Assembly: GCA_017545865.1 (NCBI GenBank)
Contig: JAFWXO010000003.1
Location: forward strand, 1-64,000
Origin: Clostridia bacterium
Lineage (GTDB): Bacteria > Bacillota > Clostridia > Christensenellales > Borkfalkiaceae
Length of the DNA stretch: 64,000 nucleotides
Direction: 5' to 3'
Position numbers and translations under genes: made by a program. This document shows, piece by piece, positions 4,726-47,655 of this stretch (positions are counted from its first letter, which is position 1; every line of letters begins with the position of its first letter). A model generated the notes under the pieces. It saw nothing but the letters and a program-made list of their open reading frames with translations, made no database searches and was not told the origin of the DNA.

Positions 4726-4807
4726 TAAAAAAGTTAAGTATTGCGGTATAACAAATGTGAGAAAGTGGGTGTATAATGGGGTTAGAAAAGCGAAAGGAGG
4801 AATTTTT

Positions 4808-6211
4808 ATGAATTACAGTTTTGAAAATATTGCAGGATATATTGAAGAAAAGGAAGAGCTCAAACGCCTTTGTGAGATTTTTAATAATCGTGAAAAATAT
4901 AAAGAAAAGGGAGCAAAACTTCCAAAGGGAATTATTTTTTACGGAGAATCGGGCACGGGTAAAACGTTATTTGCTAAGGTAATGGCGAGCGTGTGTGATT
5001 TGGAAGTTTTAAAAATCAACGTTGCCGATGCTGAAAAGGAAAGCGATATTTGCAAACTTATAAAAAAGACTTTTGCAAAAGCGGCAAGAAAGAAAACGCC
5101 AACCATGATTTTCTTTGATGAACTTGATAAGGTTTTGCCAAACGATTCGGAAAGGTATTATTCAGATCGTTCAAAAACCGTTCTTGCTCAACTTTTAACT
5201 TTGATTGACGGTATGGATAGCAGTGGCGATTTGGTTTTCGTTGCAACTTGTAATTATTACGGATCGATACCCGAAACGCTCGTTCGCCCAGGTAGAATTG
5301 ATAAGAAGATAAACGTTGGGCTTCCTAACTATTCTTCACGCGTTGAAATATTGAATATGTACGCGAAGAAATCTTCTTGCCAGTTTGAAATGAGCGTTCA
5401 AGATATGGCAAAACTTTGTTCTGGTTTTTCTTGCGCGGCGCTTGAAACGCTTATTAACGAGTGTATTTTGCACTCGGATGAGAAAGGGTTTGTTAACGAG
5501 CAACTTATTCGTTCGCAGTTTTTTGAAATTAAAAATGAAGATATTCCGCGTGAAAGTTCTTCCGTTGAAGATTCAATAACGGCGTGCCATAACGTAGGCT
5601 CGTTCATCGTTGCAAAGGCATATAACTCGGGGCATTACACTTTAAGCTTAGAAAAAGATACCGTTTGCAACAATTTTTTCAATGCTATCGTTACGCTAAA
5701 CGACAATCGTGACGATTGGGATGACGATGATGACGACGATTGGGATGACGACGATTTTGATGAATGCGATGAAGACTGCGGTGATGAAACGGATGAAAAC
5801 GTAACTTCCATTTTAAGTAAAAGCGATTATATTAACACGATAACCGTGTTGCTTGGTGGATACGTTGCGGAAGAAGTTGTTTTTAACAAAGTTTACGATA
5901 ACGTTATAGAGCCGTTGAATTCTATTGATAGAATACTTCAAAGGATGTCTGACTGCGCAATGTTTGGCGTTGGTTTGCGTTATAGCGAAGAAAGAAATCG
6001 TGACGTTTTAACTTATACCGATGAACACGTTGCAAAAGTTAACGCCGTTTTTGAACAAACCGTTAACGATTGTTACGAAAAGGCGAAAGCCATTATTGAA
6101 AAGAACGGCGAACTCATATCAAAACTTTCAAAAGTTTTGGTGGAAAAGCAGATTGTTCAAGAAACAGACTGTGAAAAACTCATAGAAGAGTTTGGCGGAA
6201 TTAAATTTTAA
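4808..6211 (+). CDS. Soluble FtsH-like AAA+ protein with a degenerate M41 protease domain
   Basis: 467 residues. The FtsH-type AAA module is complete: FENIAGYIEEKEEL at the start, Walker A GESGTGKT 46-53, Walker B MIFFDELD about 100-107, and the second region of homology with arginines in LVRPGRID about 159-165. An M41-like helical domain follows, but the zinc motif HEAGH reads HNVGS at 261-265. Both the catalytic Glu and the second His ligand are lost, so it cannot be an ordinary zinc protease. The FtsH membrane segments are absent. Residues about 302-331 are an Asp-rich insert. AAGGAGG 4795-4801 fixes the ATG at 4808, not the upstream in-frame ATG/GTG codons. It is the first gene of the operon with the RNA array. 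Likely an ATP-driven unfoldase or remodeller; the target is unknown. Confidence 0.85.
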   Translation: MNYSFENIAGYIEEKEELKRLCEIFNNREKYKEKGAKLPKGIIFYGESGTGKTLFAKVMASVCDLEVLKINVADAEKESDICKLIKKTFAKAARKKTPTMIFFDELDKVLPNDSERYYSDRSKTVLAQLLTLIDGMDSSGDLVFVATCNYYGSIPETLVRPGRIDKKINVGLPNYSSRVEILNMYAKKSSCQFEMSVQDMAKLCSGFSCAALETLINECILHSDEKGFVNEQLIRSQFFEIKNEDIPRESSSVEDSITACHNVGSFIVAKAYNSGHYTLSLEKDTVCNNFFNAIVTLNDNRDDWDDDDDDDWDDDDFDECDEDCGDETDENVTSILSKSDYINTITVLLGGYVAEEVVFNKVYDNVIEPLNSIDRILQRMSDCAMFGVGLRYSEERNRDVLTYTDEHVAKVNAVFEQTVNDCYEKAKAIIEKNGELISKLSKVLVEKQIVQETDCEKLIEEFGGIKF

Positions 6212-6221
6212 CAATTAAAAA

Positions 6222-6303
6222 AAGACGCAACCAGCAAACGTTAAGGCTTCATGACTGTTAATCATTTTGGCAAGTGGGAAACCGCTTATTTGCGTCTTGT
6301 AAA
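6222..6303 (+). ncRNA. Structured RNA element, array unit 1
   Basis: Closed by a 9-bp stem AAGACGCAA (6222-6230) with TTGCGTCTT (6290-6298), followed by the tail GTAAA. The inner 5' box CCAGCA is at 6231-6236. The core has two hairpins. ATGA-CTGTTAA-TCAT (6251-6265) has a seven-base loop identical to the usual tRNA-Asn anticodon loop. AAGTGG-GAAA-CCGCTT (6272-6287) is capped by a GNRA loop. The cloverleaf-like layout suggests tRNA mimicry. It starts only 10 bases after the AAA gene stop and no promoter of its own is seen. Confidence 0.7.
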
Positions 6304-6493
6304 CGCTATCCCCTAAAGGAACTTGTATTCCACAGGCTTGATGGCAAAAACTAAAGACACCTGCAGCATTTTTTAGCTCCATTATTTTAATTGAGGGGGA
6401 AAGCTAATCCCCTCAGGTGTCTTGTAAACGCTATCCCCTAAAGGAACTTGTATTCCACAGGTTAGATGGCAAAAACTAAAGACACTTGCAGCA
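6294..6493 (+). repeat. 75-bp direct repeat linking array units 1-2 and 2-3
   Basis: 6294-6368 and 6419-6493 differ at only 3 of 75 positions, offset 125 bases. Each copy begins with the end of one unit and ends with the start of the next. In between it folds by itself: GCTATC pairs with GATGGC, CCT with AGG, and GGAA with TTCC around the loop CTTGTA. The same CTTGTA loop reappears in unit 4 (6607-6612), and the word CTTGT also ends every unit. The near identity points to recent duplication or strong constraint. Confidence 0.85.
6354..6428 (+). ncRNA. Structured RNA element, array unit 2
   Basis: Closing stem AAGACACCT (6354-6362) with AGGTGTCTT (6415-6423), 9 perfect pairs, tail GTAAA. Inner box GCAGCA 6363-6368. 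The core holds the hairpin GAGGGG/CCCCTC (6393-6398, 6409-6414). Its loop contains AGCTAA, complementary to TTAGCT at 6373-6378, so a pseudoknot is likely. Confidence 0.7.
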
Positions 6494-6538
6494 ATATTTG
6501 GAAATATCAAAGAATTAAATCCAATGGTGTCTTGTAAA
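6479..6538 (+). ncRNA. Structured RNA element, array unit 3
   Basis: Closing stem AAGACACT (6479-6486) with GGTGTCTT (6526-6533), 8 pairs including one T-G wobble where unit 2 has C-G, tail GTAAA. Inner box GCAGCA 6488-6493. The short core has hairpin ATATT/AATAT with loop TGGA, complementary to TCCA at 6520-6523: again a possible pseudoknot. Confidence 0.65.
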
Positions 6539-6548
6539 AAAGTTAATA

Positions 6549-6669
6549 AAGATGCGTACAGCAAAACACACTTAAAAAGATATTCGTTTCTTAAGGAGCA
6601 CTTAGGCTTGTACCTAAGCGGATGTAGAGCAGAAATGCTCTATATGTTTAGTAAAGGCATCTTGTTAAA
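6549..6669 (+). ncRNA. Structured RNA element, array unit 4
   Basis: Closing stem AAGATGC (6549-6555) with GCATCTT (6657-6663), tail GTTAAA. Inner box ACAGCA 6558-6563. This longest core contains three hairpins: CTTAA/TTAAG around 6571-6595, CTTAGG-CTTGTA-CCTAAG (6601-6618), and TAGAGCA-GAAA-TGCTCTA (6625-6642), which extends to about 10 pairs and has a GNRA cap. Confidence 0.65.
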
Positions 6670-6759
6670 GGCGCATACAGCAAGTTGAAAAACTGTCAGC
6701 ACAAAAAGTATTTCTGATCAAAGCGAGGTTTCGCTTTAATAAAAATGCGCCTTGTTAAA
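6668..6759 (+). ncRNA. Structured RNA element, array unit 5
   Basis: Closing stem AAGGCGCAT (6668-6676) with ATGCGCCTT (6745-6753), 9 perfect pairs, tail GTTAAA. Inner box ACAGCA 6677-6682. Core hairpins are AGTT-GAAA-AACT (6683-6694) and AAAGCGA-GGTT-TCGCTTT (6720-6737). The unit ends 28 bases before the Ro-like gene; the ribosome-binding site AAAGGAG follows it. Confidence 0.7.
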
Positions 6760-6787: not shown

Positions 6788-8257
6788 ATGCTTAAATATC
6801 TTAAAGAAGAAGCAAATAAGGTTTATACTGAAAACGGTGCGGTAACCAATGAAAGCACAGGAGATTTTTGCCTTGATTTATTTGCAACCATCGGGGCAAT
6901 TCGCAGAGAAAGCGATAGCGAAATTGAATCGCGTTTTATAAGAGCGTATACGGAAAACAAAGATATTGCAATGAAAATCTTGTTTTTCGCTCGTGACGTA
7001 AGGGGTGGTCTTGGTGAGCGCAGGGTTTTTAGGGTTATCCTTAAATGGCTTGCAAAGAACGAAACTTTCACCGTTAAAAAGAATCTTAAATATATTGCCG
7101 AATACGGAAGATACGACGATTTGCTCGTTTTAATGGATACGCCTTGCGAAAAGGAAATGCTTGCCGTTATCAAAGCGCAATTTGACGCTGACGTGAAGGC
7201 TATGGAAAATAAAGAAGAAGTATCTTTGCTTGCAAAGTGGCTTCCTTCCGTTAACACTTCTAATCAGGAAACCGTAAAATGCGCAAAGAAAATAGCAAAA
7301 GCGTTTAATATGAACGACGCTACTTATAGAAAGGCGCTTTCATCTCTTCGTGCATACCTAAAAATTATTGAAAACAACCTTCGTGAAAAAGATTACTCTT
7401 TTGACTATGAAAAGCAATCTTCAAAGGCAATGTTTAAGTATAAAAAGGCGTTTATCCGTAACGACGGCGAAAGGTATAACGCATTTATAAGGAAGGTGGA
7501 AAGGGGTGAAGTTAAACTTAACGCTTCAACGCTTGCTCCTTACGAACTTGTTGACCCTTTCATTGATGATGATTGGTTGAGAGATCTTAGCAAGGAAGAA
7601 CAAGCATCTCTCAATGCAACTTGGAATTCTCTTCCCAACTATGGAACGGATGAAAACGCCATTGCGGTGATTGATACGTCGGGTTCTATGTATTGGGCAA
7701 AAAGACCTACGCCAGCATCCGTTGCGCTTTCGCTTGGTATTTACTTTGCAGAACGCAATAAGGGTTATTTTAAAAACTACTTTATTGAGTTTTCCGCAAG
7801 ACCTCAGCTTATCGAGATTAAAGGCGAAACCTTTGCCGATAAACTTCGTTATCTTGCAACTTTTAATGAAGTTGCTAATACGAATATACAAGCGGTTTTT
7901 AATTTGATTTTGAATGCGGCGGTTAAAAACAAATTGCCACAAAGCGAACTTCCTTCAAAACTTTATCTTATTTCCGATATGGAGTTTGATGAGGTGGTAG
8001 ATAATGCGGAACTAACAAACTTTGAAAACGCTAAAAAGAAGTTTGAAGCAAAAGGTTATAAACTCCCCGATATCGTATTTTGGAACGTGGCAAGCCGTAA
8101 TAGAGGGCAGCCCGTAACCAAAAGTGAAAACGGCGTAGTTTTGGTTTCCGGTTGCACGCCTAAACTTTTTAGTATGGTGGCAAGTGGCGAAATGAACCCC
8201 CTTTCATTTATGATGGAAGTTATTGAAAGCGAGCGTTATTCAAAAATAGTCGCTTAA
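6788..8257 (+). CDS. Ro60/TROVE-like RNA-binding protein with C-terminal vWA domain
   Basis: 489 residues. The N-terminal two thirds are helical HEAT-like repeats of the TROVE/DUF2828 type: FFARDVRGGLGERRVFR, EYGRYDDLLVL, LLAKWLPSVNTSN, and KYKKAFIRNDGERYNAF. The C-terminal third is a von Willebrand A domain with the MIDAS motif DTSGS near residue 297 and ISDMEFD later. Ro proteins bind misfolded RNAs and Y RNAs, and bacterial Ro (Rsr) works with Y RNAs and exonucleases. Here the gene follows an array of structured RNAs and precedes rtcB, the same grouping as the rsr-Y RNA-rtcB loci of other bacteria. AAAGGAG at 6774-6780 sets the start. TROVE and DUF2828 are related, and I cannot decide between the two labels. 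Confidence 0.8.
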   Translation: MLKYLKEEANKVYTENGAVTNESTGDFCLDLFATIGAIRRESDSEIESRFIRAYTENKDIAMKILFFARDVRGGLGERRVFRVILKWLAKNETFTVKKNLKYIAEYGRYDDLLVLMDTPCEKEMLAVIKAQFDADVKAMENKEEVSLLAKWLPSVNTSNQETVKCAKKIAKAFNMNDATYRKALSSLRAYLKIIENNLREKDYSFDYEKQSSKAMFKYKKAFIRNDGERYNAFIRKVERGEVKLNASTLAPYELVDPFIDDDWLRDLSKEEQASLNATWNSLPNYGTDENAIAVIDTSGSMYWAKRPTPASVALSLGIYFAERNKGYFKNYFIEFSARPQLIEIKGETFADKLRYLATFNEVANTNIQAVFNLILNAAVKNKLPQSELPSKLYLISDMEFDEVVDNAELTNFENAKKKFEAKGYKLPDIVFWNVASRNRGQPVTKSENGVVLVSGCTPKLFSMVASGEMNPLSFMMEVIESERYSKIVA

Positions 8258-8369
8258 AAAAAGAGAAAAAAGAAGAAGGCTTTTCGCGATTTACTTTAGA
8301 CGATATTATGTCGGCAGTATTAAACGAACAGCCTTTTTTAAAATAAAAAAGTTAAAGGATATGATAATT

Positions 8370-9578
8370 ATGATAGAAATAAAAGGAAAATATAATATTG
8401 CAAAATGCTTTACTTCCCAAATGGAAGACGACGCTTCCGAGCAAATTAAGAAAATATGCGATACGGAAGCGTTTGCAAATTCAAAAATAAGAATAATGCC
8501 TGACGTTCACGCGGGCAAGGGTTGCACGATAGGTACAACTATGACGATAACCGATAAAATCGTTCCTTCAATGGTCGGCGTTGATATCGGTTGCGGTATG
8601 TATACCGTTTATCTTGGTAAAATAGATATTGACTTTGAAAAGATAGACGAGGTGGCGCATTTTATTCCTTCTGGAAGAAACGTTTGGGAAGGTAGGCAAG
8701 AAAGATTCGACTTGACTGTACTTCGCTCGTATCGTAACCTTAAAGACTCCAAAAGGCTTGAAAGAAGCCTTGGAACTTTGGGTGGCGGTAATCATTTTAT
8801 TGAAATTGACGAAGACGATGAGGGTGGTAAGTATTTAGTTATTCACTCGGGAAGCCGTAATCTTGGAACGCAAGTTGCCGAGTTTTATCAACAAATTGCA
8901 GTTGATTTAAATGTTGGAAAAGAAGACTATTTCAAGAAGAAAGAAGAGATAATATCGACCTATAAGGCGGAAGGAAGAAGGCAGGAAATTCAAAAGGAAC
9001 TTAAAAGGCTTAAAAGAACGTTTGAAACCAAAGAACCTTCCCTTCCTCGTGATATGTGTTATCTTTACAATTCGTTTATGGAAGACTACCTTCACGACGT
9101 TGATATTTGCCAAAAATTTGCCGAAAGAAGTCGCGAAAAAATGGCGGAAATTATTTTGGAAAAAACGGGCATTATTCCCATTGAAACCTTCCAAACGATA
9201 CACAACTACGTCGACGTTAAGGAAATGATTCTTCGTAAAGGTTCGGTTTCCGCTAAAAAGGGAGAAAAACTTTTGATTCCTATCAACATGCGTGACGGTT
9301 CGCTTATTTGTATTGGCAAGGGCAACGAAGATTGGAATTTTTCAGCCCCTCACGGCGCGGGCAGATTGATGTCGCGTACAAAGGCGTTTGAAAATCTTAC
9401 GATGGAACAGTACCAAAAGGAAATGAAAGGTATTTATTCAACGTGTGTTAACCCTTCAACTTTGGATGAATCGCCCATGGCGTATAAGCCTATGGATGAA
9501 ATAGTAAAAAACATAGAGCCGACTGCTGAAATTATAAAGAGAATCAAACCCATTTATAATTTTAAAGCGTCAAACTAA
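8370..9578 (+). CDS. rtcB: RNA-splicing ligase RtcB
   Basis: 402 residues. RtcB joins RNA 2',3'-cyclic phosphate or 3'-phosphate ends to 5'-OH ends through a GMP-histidine intermediate with Mn2+. Visible family motifs in order: PDVHAGKGCTIGTTM, VGVDIGCGM, LGTLGGGNHFIE, HSGSRNLG, HNYVD, and SAPHGAGRLMSR, which holds the histidine guanylylated in studied RtcBs. It is a compact form compared with archaeal RtcB. The frame has two ATGs. AAAGGA (8354-8359) is adjacent to the first (8361) and 10 bases from the second, so 8370 (MIEIKG) is chosen. It is 112 bases after the Ro-like gene with no terminator, so probably co-transcribed. It likely repairs or matures the RNAs handled by the Ro-like protein. 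Confidence 0.95.
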   Translation: MIEIKGKYNIAKCFTSQMEDDASEQIKKICDTEAFANSKIRIMPDVHAGKGCTIGTTMTITDKIVPSMVGVDIGCGMYTVYLGKIDIDFEKIDEVAHFIPSGRNVWEGRQERFDLTVLRSYRNLKDSKRLERSLGTLGGGNHFIEIDEDDEGGKYLVIHSGSRNLGTQVAEFYQQIAVDLNVGKEDYFKKKEEIISTYKAEGRRQEIQKELKRLKRTFETKEPSLPRDMCYLYNSFMEDYLHDVDICQKFAERSREKMAEIILEKTGIIPIETFQTIHNYVDVKEMILRKGSVSAKKGEKLLIPINMRDGSLICIGKGNEDWNFSAPHGAGRLMSRTKAFENLTMEQYQKEMKGIYSTCVNPSTLDESPMAYKPMDEIVKNIEPTAEIIKRIKPIYNFKASN

Positions 9579-25988: not shown

Positions 25989-27281
25989 TTATTTTTTCTT
26001 TTTAAACGACGGTATAAACATAAACGCTAACGCGCTAAGCGCTAAAAGGTAGGGGTAGAAAAGGAAGGGGATAACCGCGCCTGCGGAAACCGCCGTTAAA
26101 CTAACCGCCGTTACCATTTGAGCGCCGTAGGGGATAATTCCTTGAACAACGCTACCAAAAATATCAAGGAGAGATGCCGTTTTGGTGCTCGTTATTCCGT
26201 ATTCTTCGCTAATGGTTTTTGCAATCGGCGCTGCCATAACGATTGCAACGGTGTTGTTTGCGGTTGCAACGTCCATTGCGGAAACTAATAAACTAATGCC
26301 GAGTTGACCGCCAACTTTGCCCTTAAAGAGTTTTTTAATTCCCGATAAGAGCGCGTCAAACCCGCCGAACTCTCTCATAAGCGCCGATAAAACGGTTACG
26401 AGCACGGTTACCATAATAACTTCAAACATACCGCTTGCGCCACCGCCCATTGACGAAACGACTGCAAGAAGTTCCACGCCGAGCGCAAGTTTGATAACGA
26501 TAGCCGTAACGATACCCGAAATTAAAACGACGAAAACGTTAATGCCAACGATACCGCCTATCAAAACTAAAACGTAAGGGAGAAGTAACCAAACGTTGAT
26601 TTTATCGGGAGTGTAGTCGCTTGCGCCGTCACTTGTCAAAGCGAAAATCAATAAAACGACGATTGTTAAAATTGCCGCGGGTAAAGCGATAAAGAAATTT
26701 TCTTTAAACTTATCTTTCATCTTGCAACCTTGGGTTGAAGTTGCAGCAATAGTTGTGTCTGAAATAAAAGATAAATTGTCACCGAACATTGCGCCACCGA
26801 TAACCGAGCCAACGATAAGCGGAAGGGAAATGCCCGTTGCTTGCGAGATTGCTAGCCCTATAGGAGCAATAACCGTTATAGTTCCGCAAGAAGTACCCAT
26901 AGCCGTTGAAACAAAGCAAGCAACTAAGAATAAAACGAGAGCGGAGAAGTTTGACGGGATAAAACTTAAAAATAAGTCCGCCACCGTTTTAGCGCCTTCT
27001 CTACCGAGAGTGCCTGCGAACACGCCTGCCGCAAGGAAGATAAGAATCATCGTAACGATGTTTTTATCCGCCAAGCCCTTTGCCATAACTGAAAGCTTAT
27101 CGTCAAACTTTAACTTGCGGTTTTGAAGGCAGGCAACGAGAATTGCCACCATAAACGCAACTACAACGCTCATAGCGTAAAAGTCGTTAAAGATTAAACT
27201 AAAACCTATATAAACTACTAAAAATACAGCGATGGGAAGAAGCGCCCACCAGTTACCTTTCTTTTGTGAAAGTTCTTGCAT
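25989..27281 (-). CDS. NhaC-family Na+/H+ antiporter-like transporter
   Basis: 430 residues with about 11-12 membrane helices. AMGTSCGTITVIAPIGLAI and GAMFGDNLSFISDTTIAAT are the discontinuous-helix motifs of the NhaC/ion-transporter superfamily. DVATANNTVAIVMAAPIAK is the matching element of the second repeat. Likely exchanges Na+ for H+ or an organic substrate at the membrane; some relatives carry malate/lactate. The frame is open to 27341, but AAGGAG lies 8 bases before the ATG at 27281. Confidence 0.85.
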   Translation of the reverse strand: MQELSQKKGNWWALLPIAVFLVVYIGFSLIFNDFYAMSVVVAFMVAILVACLQNRKLKFDDKLSVMAKGLADKNIVTMILIFLAAGVFAGTLGREGAKTVADLFLSFIPSNFSALVLFLVACFVSTAMGTSCGTITVIAPIGLAISQATGISLPLIVGSVIGGAMFGDNLSFISDTTIAATSTQGCKMKDKFKENFFIALPAAILTIVVLLIFALTSDGASDYTPDKINVWLLLPYVLVLIGGIVGINVFVVLISGIVTAIVIKLALGVELLAVVSSMGGGASGMFEVIMVTVLVTVLSALMREFGGFDALLSGIKKLFKGKVGGQLGISLLVSAMDVATANNTVAIVMAAPIAKTISEEYGITSTKTASLLDIFGSVVQGIIPYGAQMVTAVSLTAVSAGAVIPFLFYPYLLALSALAFMFIPSFKKKK

Positions 27282-47522: not shown

Positions 47523-47655
47523 TATCCATAAAGAGTGCGTTAGGGACAGCCCCTTTGACCGCACAGCAACCTACCGTAAGGTAAGGTGCTAAAGGCTGAA
47601 TGATGGGGAGATTTCTTTATAGTAATAAACCCATCTGTGATGGGTTTTTCTTTTT
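47523..47655 (+). promoter_or_regulatory. SAM riboswitch, SAM-I/IV-variant-like, with terminator
   Basis: The core AGGGACAGCCCC, CAGCAACC and AAGGTGCTAA is that of the SAM-I clan. P1 is TCCAT 47525-47529 with ATGGG 47603-47607. P2 is GTGCG 47535-47539 with CGCAC 47560-47564 plus GGG/CCC. P3 is ACCTACC-GTAA-GGTAAGGT. The P2 loop CAGCC can form a pseudoknot with GGCTG 47594-47598. There is no P4, which points to the SAM-I/IV variant. The terminator is AAACCCATC/GATGGGTTT (47627-47647) plus T-run. GATGGG 47602-47607 can pair with CCCATC 47630-47635 as antiterminator, so bound SAM should switch the gene off. Confidence 0.85.

Follow-up and report, generated by a model that had tools for sequence, protein, structure and literature searches.

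The 64-kb window analysed here (positions 1-64,000 of a contig of a Clostridia bacterium) carries an array of five small structured RNA units, followed by a gene for a DUF2828/DUF7788 protein with a predicted Ro60 fold. The units share a constant part, here called the handle, consisting of a closing stem, the letters CAGC at +10 and a G after the 3' strand of the stem. By sequence comparison, this handle was shown to recur beside DUF2828 genes, with compensating changes in its stem. We regard it as nearly certain that the array belongs to a widespread structured RNA family tied to Ro-fold DUF2828 genes, a family that is not described in the literature searched. An initial annotation of the locus, which had proposed a structure under selection and Y-RNA-like RNAs beside a Ro-like gene, is supported. 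As to function, we lean slightly towards a reading in which the array yields five small handle RNAs, the handle being bound by the Ro-like DUF2828 protein and the inserts being displayed as decoys of tRNA parts; this reading draws on sequence comparison, a structural model and analogy. Below, L and G followed by a number denote loci and genomes, respectively.

The handle recurs beside DUF2828 genes

All elements of the locus lie on the forward strand, in the order AAA/M41-like gene (4757-6211), five units (6222-6753), DUF2828/DUF7788 gene (6788-8257) and rtcB (8361-9578). Unit 1 (6222-6298) is closed by a 9-bp stem (6222-6230 with 6290-6298; AAGACGCAA/TTGCGTCTT), has the box CAGCA at 6232-6236 and holds an anticodon-arm-like hairpin in its core. 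Unit 2 (6354-6423) has a 10-bp stem (AAGACACCTG/CAGGTGTCTT), the box at 6364-6368 and an inner hairpin GAGGGG/CCCCTC; unit 3 (6479-6533) an 8-bp stem including one G-U pair (AAGACACT/GGTGTCTT), the box at 6489-6493 and a short core that folds weakly; unit 4 (6549-6663) a 7-bp stem (AAGATGC/GCATCTT), the box at 6559-6563 and a long tRNA-like core that can be aligned with seven units elsewhere; and unit 5 (6668-6753) a 9-bp stem (AAGGCGCAT/ATGCGCCTT) and the box at 6678-6682. The AAG...CTT stems with these pairings, the CAGCA box and the tail GTWAA after the 3' strand, which is present in all five units, had been described in the initial annotation and were all found in place; its remark that the cores differ completely is correct within the window. 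One constant had been overlooked, namely that the distance from the first A of AAG to CAGC is exactly 10 nt in all five units.

A unit was defined by CAGC at +10, a stem of at least 7 bp with at most one G-U and at least three G-C pairs, a G after the stem and a span of at most 240 nt. Applied to the whole window, this rule returned the five units and nothing else on the forward strand and no match on the reverse strand, and every other offset from 3 to 18 gave 0-2 matches with both strands summed. The folding of single units is uneven: it is clear for units 2, 4 and 5 (z -3.02, -3.36 and -3.04, with at most two of 200 dinucleotide shuffles folding as well), moderate for unit 1 (z -2.02, equalled by six of 200 such shuffles) and unremarkable for unit 3 (z -1.30, equalled by 20 of 200). 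The case for the array therefore rests on comparison. Rfam returned no match within the array at standard cut-offs, and a permissive search gave chance-level matches only.

DUF2828 relatives were collected from 18 genome contigs and from sampled genomes, giving 25 bacterial loci with the window excluded. These loci held 76 stems at offset 10, as against 2-12 at other offsets and seven on the opposite strand; three of the 76 (L008 at 1726, L011 at 1503 and L014 at 853) lie outside arrays and are probably due to chance. At least one unit was found in 24 of the 25 loci, L003 being the exception, and the number of units per locus ranged from one to at least ten. Carriers of arrays include Clostridia, Gastranaerophilales, Anaerocolumna and Treponema. 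The loci are not all independent, because the arrays of Treponema (L019, L020 and L022) and those of L054-L056 are near copies. In a set of 23 loci (L010 was excluded, L002 repeats L005, and L003, L004 and L054 lie outside the set), 82 5' anchors were located with no structural criterion; 74 of them pair over at least 7 bp within their own interval, and control trials with intervals taken from other loci paired in 25.6% of 6138 cases.

Within the phylum, DUF2828 was found in seven of 398 genomes. The pattern AAAGRYRCNNACAGCAA had 56 matches in 44 of these genomes; eight matches fell in six of the seven DUF2828 genomes, each upstream of the gene by no more than about 1 kb, and in the seventh (G242, locus L057) the units carry a CAGCC variant. 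A 7-bp partner strand with its G accompanied all eight matches in DUF2828 genomes under a loose rule and seven under a strict rule; for the 48 matches in genomes lacking DUF2828, the numbers were three and one. Given those 48 matches, and 16 for a reversed control in the same 398 genomes, the 5' pattern alone is unspecific and it is the partner strand that is specific, L048 being the one strict exception. TROVE genes were present in nine of the 398 genomes, none of them a DUF2828 genome. The expectation that arrays would also accompany TROVE genes was not borne out: on the nine stretches (about 3 kb each) the rule gave one match, on the TROVE strand, which is probably due to chance since it lies inside the L070 reading frame and its ACAGCAA letters are incomplete.

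Relatives of DUF2828 were present in 682 of 50,697 phage records, some of them annotated as "Ro-like" or "RNA-binding". A first scan found offset-10 units of at least 7 bp in 10 of 14 phage and plasmid stretches: Bacillus phage FADO, Listeria phage P100, Felix O1, LeBron, Cronobacter S13, one phage each of Enterococcus, Staphylococcus and Campylobacter, a scaffold from a faecal phage, and a plasmid from Subdoligranulum. With the CAGCC unit of a Jeotgalibacillus plasmid (L080), the total comes to 11 of 14. Independently of these stretches, we analysed the best 80 of 497 confirmed viral loci; a scan for close relatives had found no DUF2828 in viral contigs, and an alignment-based scan found them. 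At offset 10 the viral loci held 149 stems, 124 of them flanked by G, and 13 on the opposite strand; offsets 3-7 and 12-18 gave 11-39 stems, 1-8 of them G-flanked. A G-flanked unit was present in 50 of the 80 loci, so that the search for homologous arrays near other such genes, by which the initial annotation was to be checked, succeeded in 24 of 25 bacterial and 50 of 80 viral loci. The T4 and T5 tRNA clusters (T4 and T5 were not checked for DUF2828) contain no unit on the tRNA strand, and T4 rnaC/rnaD and the T5 stable RNAs, considered as candidate members, were rejected since no unit lies on their strand.

The covariation of the closing stem was assessed after excluding the eight anchors without a 7-bp partner and merging two duplicate bacterial and five duplicate viral units. 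Across the 72 distinct units from bacteria, A-T (39) and G-C (33) occur at the fourth pair, C-G (47), T-A (24) and G-C (1) at the fifth, and G-C (32), A-T (32), T-A (4), G-T (2) and C-G (2) at the sixth. In the 119 distinct viral units the first pair varies too (A-T 58, T-A 42, G-C 12, G-T 7). As units were selected for having seven pairs, the weight is carried by the variety of the pairs kept and by the sharp peak at offset 10.

Relation to Ro proteins, Y RNAs and Class I RNAs

The gene after the array encodes a protein of 489 amino acids. Calling it Ro/TROVE-like was half right: a Ro60 fold is predicted, but by sequence the protein is DUF2828/DUF7788 and not TROVE. Pfam returned DUF2828 and DUF7788 only, and a search of the window's genome for TROVE (PF05731) gave no match. 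The structural model shows a helical-repeat ring and a vWA domain, the arrangement by which we recognise the Ro60 fold. A sequence search of the PDB with the protein did not reach Ro60, which is reached by fold comparison alone. Residues D296, S298 and S300, which form a DxSxS motif, are invariant across 22 sequences; we take this motif to be the MIDAS metal site of the vWA domain.

The general plan of the handle units is that of Y RNAs. YrlA is a permuted tRNA mimic, and, with its partner Ro60/Rsr, it resembles the handle units in a constant stem that joins the ends, in a tRNA-mimic module (present in part of the handle units) and in an adjoining Ro-fold gene. Below the Rfam cut-off, the YrlA model (RF02553) matched unit 2 of L018 (41.4 bits, E 5.6e-8, model positions 23-87) and unit 1 of L020 from Treponema (32.3 bits, E 2.3e-5, whole model). 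At the cut-off, however, neither the window nor 18 related loci gave a match, and the units cannot for that reason be filed in the YrlA family. They also differ from it in that the YrlA consensus lacks the ACAGCAA handle, that arrays have many units per locus and that the partner of YrlA is a TROVE Ro protein, whereas the neighbour of the handle units is DUF2828 by sequence. The earlier proposal of a Y-RNA-like family thus stands as regards the homologous arrays, the predicted fold and the sub-threshold matches, but not as an assignment to YrlA.

The handle itself is nearest to the Class I RNAs (RF01414) of dictyostelids. In the excerpts of PMC7919456, these RNAs start with AAG and have a short end-joining stem with compensating changes and a variable core; the Rfam consensus adds an ACAGCAA box beside the 5' strand. 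Class I RNAs end in CUGU, Listeria phage units in CTGT, and viral units mostly start with NAG. Among the 72 bacterial units, which were chosen for AAA or AAG, 68 start with AAG and 69 have a G after the final TT, the same plan as in Class I with one base different. The bacterial units share the ACAGCAA part of the 11-nt Class I motif CCUUACAGCAA and not its first four letters; A10 is present in 64, A12 in 69, A15 in 61 and A16 in 66 of the 72, C11, G13 and C14 being fixed by the search. In a comparison covering 4227 Rfam families, Class I was the best match for unit 1 of L018 (E 0.0083) and for two Staphylococcus phage units (E 0.043 and 0.045) and, at E<=5, the only family matching a Listeria phage stretch that contains two units (E 0.019 and 0.2); for a stretch of a Campylobacter phage it ranked second by E-value (E 2). 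All these scores (15-26 bits; best 26.0, 23.1 and 22.4) lie far below the cut-off of 41.5 for membership. The window array gave no Class I match at E<=10, and none is listed for the Treponema units.

Class I differs in that its box lies one position closer to the stem base in alignments and, according to the same excerpts, in that its known partner Rnp1A has RNA-recognition motifs and its genes have a DUSE promoter (PMC7919456). Outside Dictyostelia, the authors of that paper report none. A whole-genome search with the Class I model was discarded as support, since it returned mostly AU-rich noise: none of 24 genomes had a match over the cut-off, and control genomes matched in 8 of 14. Of its three best matches, only the third (in G560, by coordinates unit 1 of L018) is an array unit, and it was not counted. 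No named eukaryote appeared among the 120 protein matches listed for DUF2828, a list filled with close relatives; no paper in the literature searched names both DUF2828 and dictyostelids. It is a speculative and rather improbable extension that one ancient handle RNA class spans phages, bacteria and social amoebae, with Class I as its eukaryotic branch, Ro-fold DUF2828 proteins as partners, and the inserts in phages and bacteria as a library of anticodon-arm baits against tRNA-cutting immunity.

Inserts and proposed function

ARAGORN and Rfam placed tRNA genes inside or between units at several loci. Of 72 bacterial cores, 22 contained a hairpin whose 7-nt loop is of the anticodon or T-loop type (YTNNNRH), compared with 1.07 in shuffles (standard deviation 1.05); of 119 viral cores, 43 did, compared with 2.43 (standard deviation 1.43). 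Once T-arms were set apart, anticodon-type hairpins remained in 54 of 190 cores (18 of 71 from bacteria, 36 of 119 from viruses). The commonest anticodons among them were UUU (Lys, 14) and GUU (Asn, 6), with 23 others occurring one to three times each. The exact loop CTTTTAA was found in 13 cores (mean in shuffles 0.01) and CTGTTAA in six (mean in shuffles 0). At the level of sequence, the inserts thus show more anticodon-type hairpins than chance would give.

Two of the window's units fit a role as bait. Unit 1 has an anticodon-arm-like hairpin at 6251-6265 on the forward strand (ATGA-CTGTTAA-TCAT) with a loop of the tRNA-Asn GUU type; the loop in unit 1 of L005, a relative of the window, is CTTTTAA, of the Lys UUU type. 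The tRNA-like core of unit 4 has, on the same strand, an anticodon-arm-like hairpin at 6601-6618 (CTTAGG-CTTGTA-CCTAAG; 6 bp and a 6-nt loop, with one pair broken in the alignment register) and a T-arm-like hairpin at 6625-6642 (TAGAGC-AGAAAT-GCTCTA). In the alignment of unit 4 with its seven counterparts, both sides change in three of five pairs of the first of these helices (helix 2) and in four of six pairs of the second (helix 3); the structure as a whole had 27 cells with changes on both sides, where shuffles had 8.5, and 96.1% were paired. As the eight units were picked by eye for likeness, these counts lean towards that structure. For units 2, 3 and 5, no likeness to tRNA was established.

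The bait model follows from three points: anticodon arms lead among the inserts, phage tRNAs counter tRNA cutting, and YrlA, as the authors of PMC7790460 mention, might inhibit an anticodon nuclease competitively. On the second point, tRNA-Lys supply counters PrrC170 and tRNA-Tyr supply counters retron-Eco7, as stated in the abstract of PMC11555353. Like phage tRNA clusters, handle arrays keep company with tRNA genes, which lie on the same strand in 49 of the 80 viral DUF2828 loci. They differ in that most handle units are not tRNAs, ARAGORN calling a tRNA inside few of them, and in that phage tRNAs resist cutting in the proposal of van den Berg et al., whereas baits would attract the enzyme. 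In the model, a precursor transcript would be cut into separate handle RNAs, and DUF2828 would grip the constant handle much in the way that Ro60 holds a Y RNA by its constant stem. Enzymes that cut or process tRNAs would be drawn to the variable insert, so that anticodon nucleases would spend their effort on bait; where rtcB is present, RtcB could reseal the cut tRNA or bait. The array form would provide baits for several tRNA species per genome, Lys-UUU and Asn-GUU being the commonest, which could be gained and lost singly. Binding of the handle by the DUF2828 protein is likely, judging from gene neighbourhood and predicted fold. The bait function, argued by analogy, is the best single reading, and we hold it about evenly balanced between right and wrong.

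Several observations weigh against this reading or parts of it. No unit was found in L003 by the rule, 30 of the 80 viral loci lack a G-flanked unit, and the phage and plasmid stretches L088, L089 and L090 have none on the coding strand (L088 showing pairing without the G). The DUF2828 model has a predicted TM-score (pTM) of 0.62, and its Foldseek TM-scores to Ro matches are 0.33-0.52. No anticodon-type hairpin is present in 136 of 190 cores. The association with rtcB made in the initial annotation holds in the window, where RtcB (405 amino acids) is encoded at 8361-9578 on the forward strand, and in 12 of 26 bacterial loci with the window included, but the gene was found in 3 of 14 phage and plasmid stretches and in none of the 80 viral loci; this search used one query, some flanks were short, and other ligases were not sought. 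In Listeria phage CKA15 (L092), the most abundant non-coding RNA region near the DUF2828 gene (26,236-26,727) holds no handle unit; three units lie closer to the gene (25,552-25,290). Finally, YrlA fragments were not detected where the Salmonella tRNA-cutting nuclease was active, according to the excerpts of PMC7790460. YrlA is then not a substrate there, which suits a competitor and not a sacrificial substrate.

Among the alternatives, a Y-RNA-type scaffold, with DUF2828 on the handle and a nuclease or tRNA-processing enzyme recruited by the insert to give a complex that degrades or checks RNAs, is a possible though distinctly less probable explanation. The predicted Ro60 fold, the sub-threshold YrlA matches of L018 and L020 and the precedent of Rsr, Y RNA and PNPase in Deinococcus (in excerpts of PMC7790460 and PMC12282133) all suit it, but it leaves unexplained both the variety of displayed anticodon arms, above all UUU and GUU, and the nearness of many arrays to phage tRNA genes. 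We consider unlikely a sensor array in which nuclease cutting of the displayed arms would free or alter the Ro-like complex and signal an attack on tRNAs, the receiver being for instance the WYL-type regulator often encoded alongside. Such a role would agree with the relatives of the WCX/WYL-type protein of L005 encoded in 14 of 26 bacterial loci and with the regulation of the Salmonella rtc operon by damaged tRNAs (title of PMC7790460), but the same search found no such relative within the window's first 14 kb or in the 80 viral loci.

It is very improbable that the hairpins are a cis-acting leader, acting as attenuator or RNA-stability element of a DUF2828-rtcB operon, even though 34 nt separate the window's array from the start codon of DUF2828. 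LeBron, a Staphylococcus phage, Cronobacter S13 and Felix O1 carry their units downstream of the gene; in Felix O1 these sit among tRNA genes, a position that rules out a simple leader there. In L006 the units lie 0.9-3.6 kb upstream with tRNA genes among them, unit number varies from one to at least ten, and the array contains one terminator-like hairpin, not above chance for the region. Equally improbable are guide or splicing substrates whose stem-cut ends RtcB would join into circular RNAs or into tRNAs from permuted genes: RtcB adjoins in the window, and units of L018 and Treponema have permuted tRNA-like cores (by eye) that match YrlA, but RtcB was not found at most loci examined and YrlA, whose arms have the same order, is linear.

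The decoy idea for Ro/Y RNA systems becomes testable in ordinary laboratory phages. One rule now suffices to recognise a large phage and bacterial RNA family; DUF2828, so far a domain without an assigned function, gains a probable ligand; and a lead is offered for the Class I RNAs of social amoebae. The excerpts of PMC12282133 (2025) suggest Y RNAs near a Listeria phage DUF2828 gene and do not name the handle motif.

Neighbouring genes and further features

Directly upstream of the array, the gene at 4757-6211 on the forward strand encodes an AAA ATPase with M41 likeness. A relative was found in one of the 25 other bacterial loci (L007, 28% identity), so that it is probably not a core part of the system. 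The protein is FtsH-like, has a long acidic stretch (DDWDDDDDDDWDDDDFDE) and reads ACHNVGS at the place, located by eye, of the FtsH motif HEAGH, so that its protease site looks lost.

Several loci showed further features around the array. A conserved stretch of about TTCGCARCTTTTTTTCCGTGA was seen by eye some 60 nt before the first unit in L007, L008, L009, L011, L012, L019, L020 and L022; near a WCX/WYL-type gene in several loci, it looks like a shared promoter or operator. At L006 (357-3216), three tRNA genes lie among or just after the last of at least ten units, the array being 0.8-3.6 kb from the gene. In L016, L017 and L021, the DUF2828 gene is closely followed by tRNA-like genes in clusters (His, Gln, Met, Phe), leaving units and tRNA genes on both sides of it. 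The DUF2828 frame of L012 (2853-4316) has one in-frame stop, and its four-unit array is intact. In the CKA15 region 26,236-26,727, CTTTTAA was seen by eye on the minus strand inside a long hairpin near 26,537-26,512, together with a GGTGAAAGCC arm resembling that of the relatives of window unit 4.

Within the window array, two 41-nt linker hairpins, absent from the initial annotation, are near-identical copies on the forward strand, one between units 1 and 2 (6305-6345, GCTATC...GATGGC, z -2.44) and the other between units 2 and 3 (6430-6470, z -2.24). The loop of the GAGGGG hairpin in unit 2 could pair with the upstream TTAGCT (6365-6416), a possible pseudoknot judged by eye; at the equivalent place in unit 2 of L005, TTTGCT pairs with GGCAAA, again by eye, with compensating changes relative to the window. 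An anticodon-like arm, which in units 1 and 2 the terminal CTTGTAA can form with ACGC downstream, was considered and dropped because the other units do not form it. Elsewhere in the window, Rfam detected a SAM riboswitch at 47523-47609 (54.5 bits).
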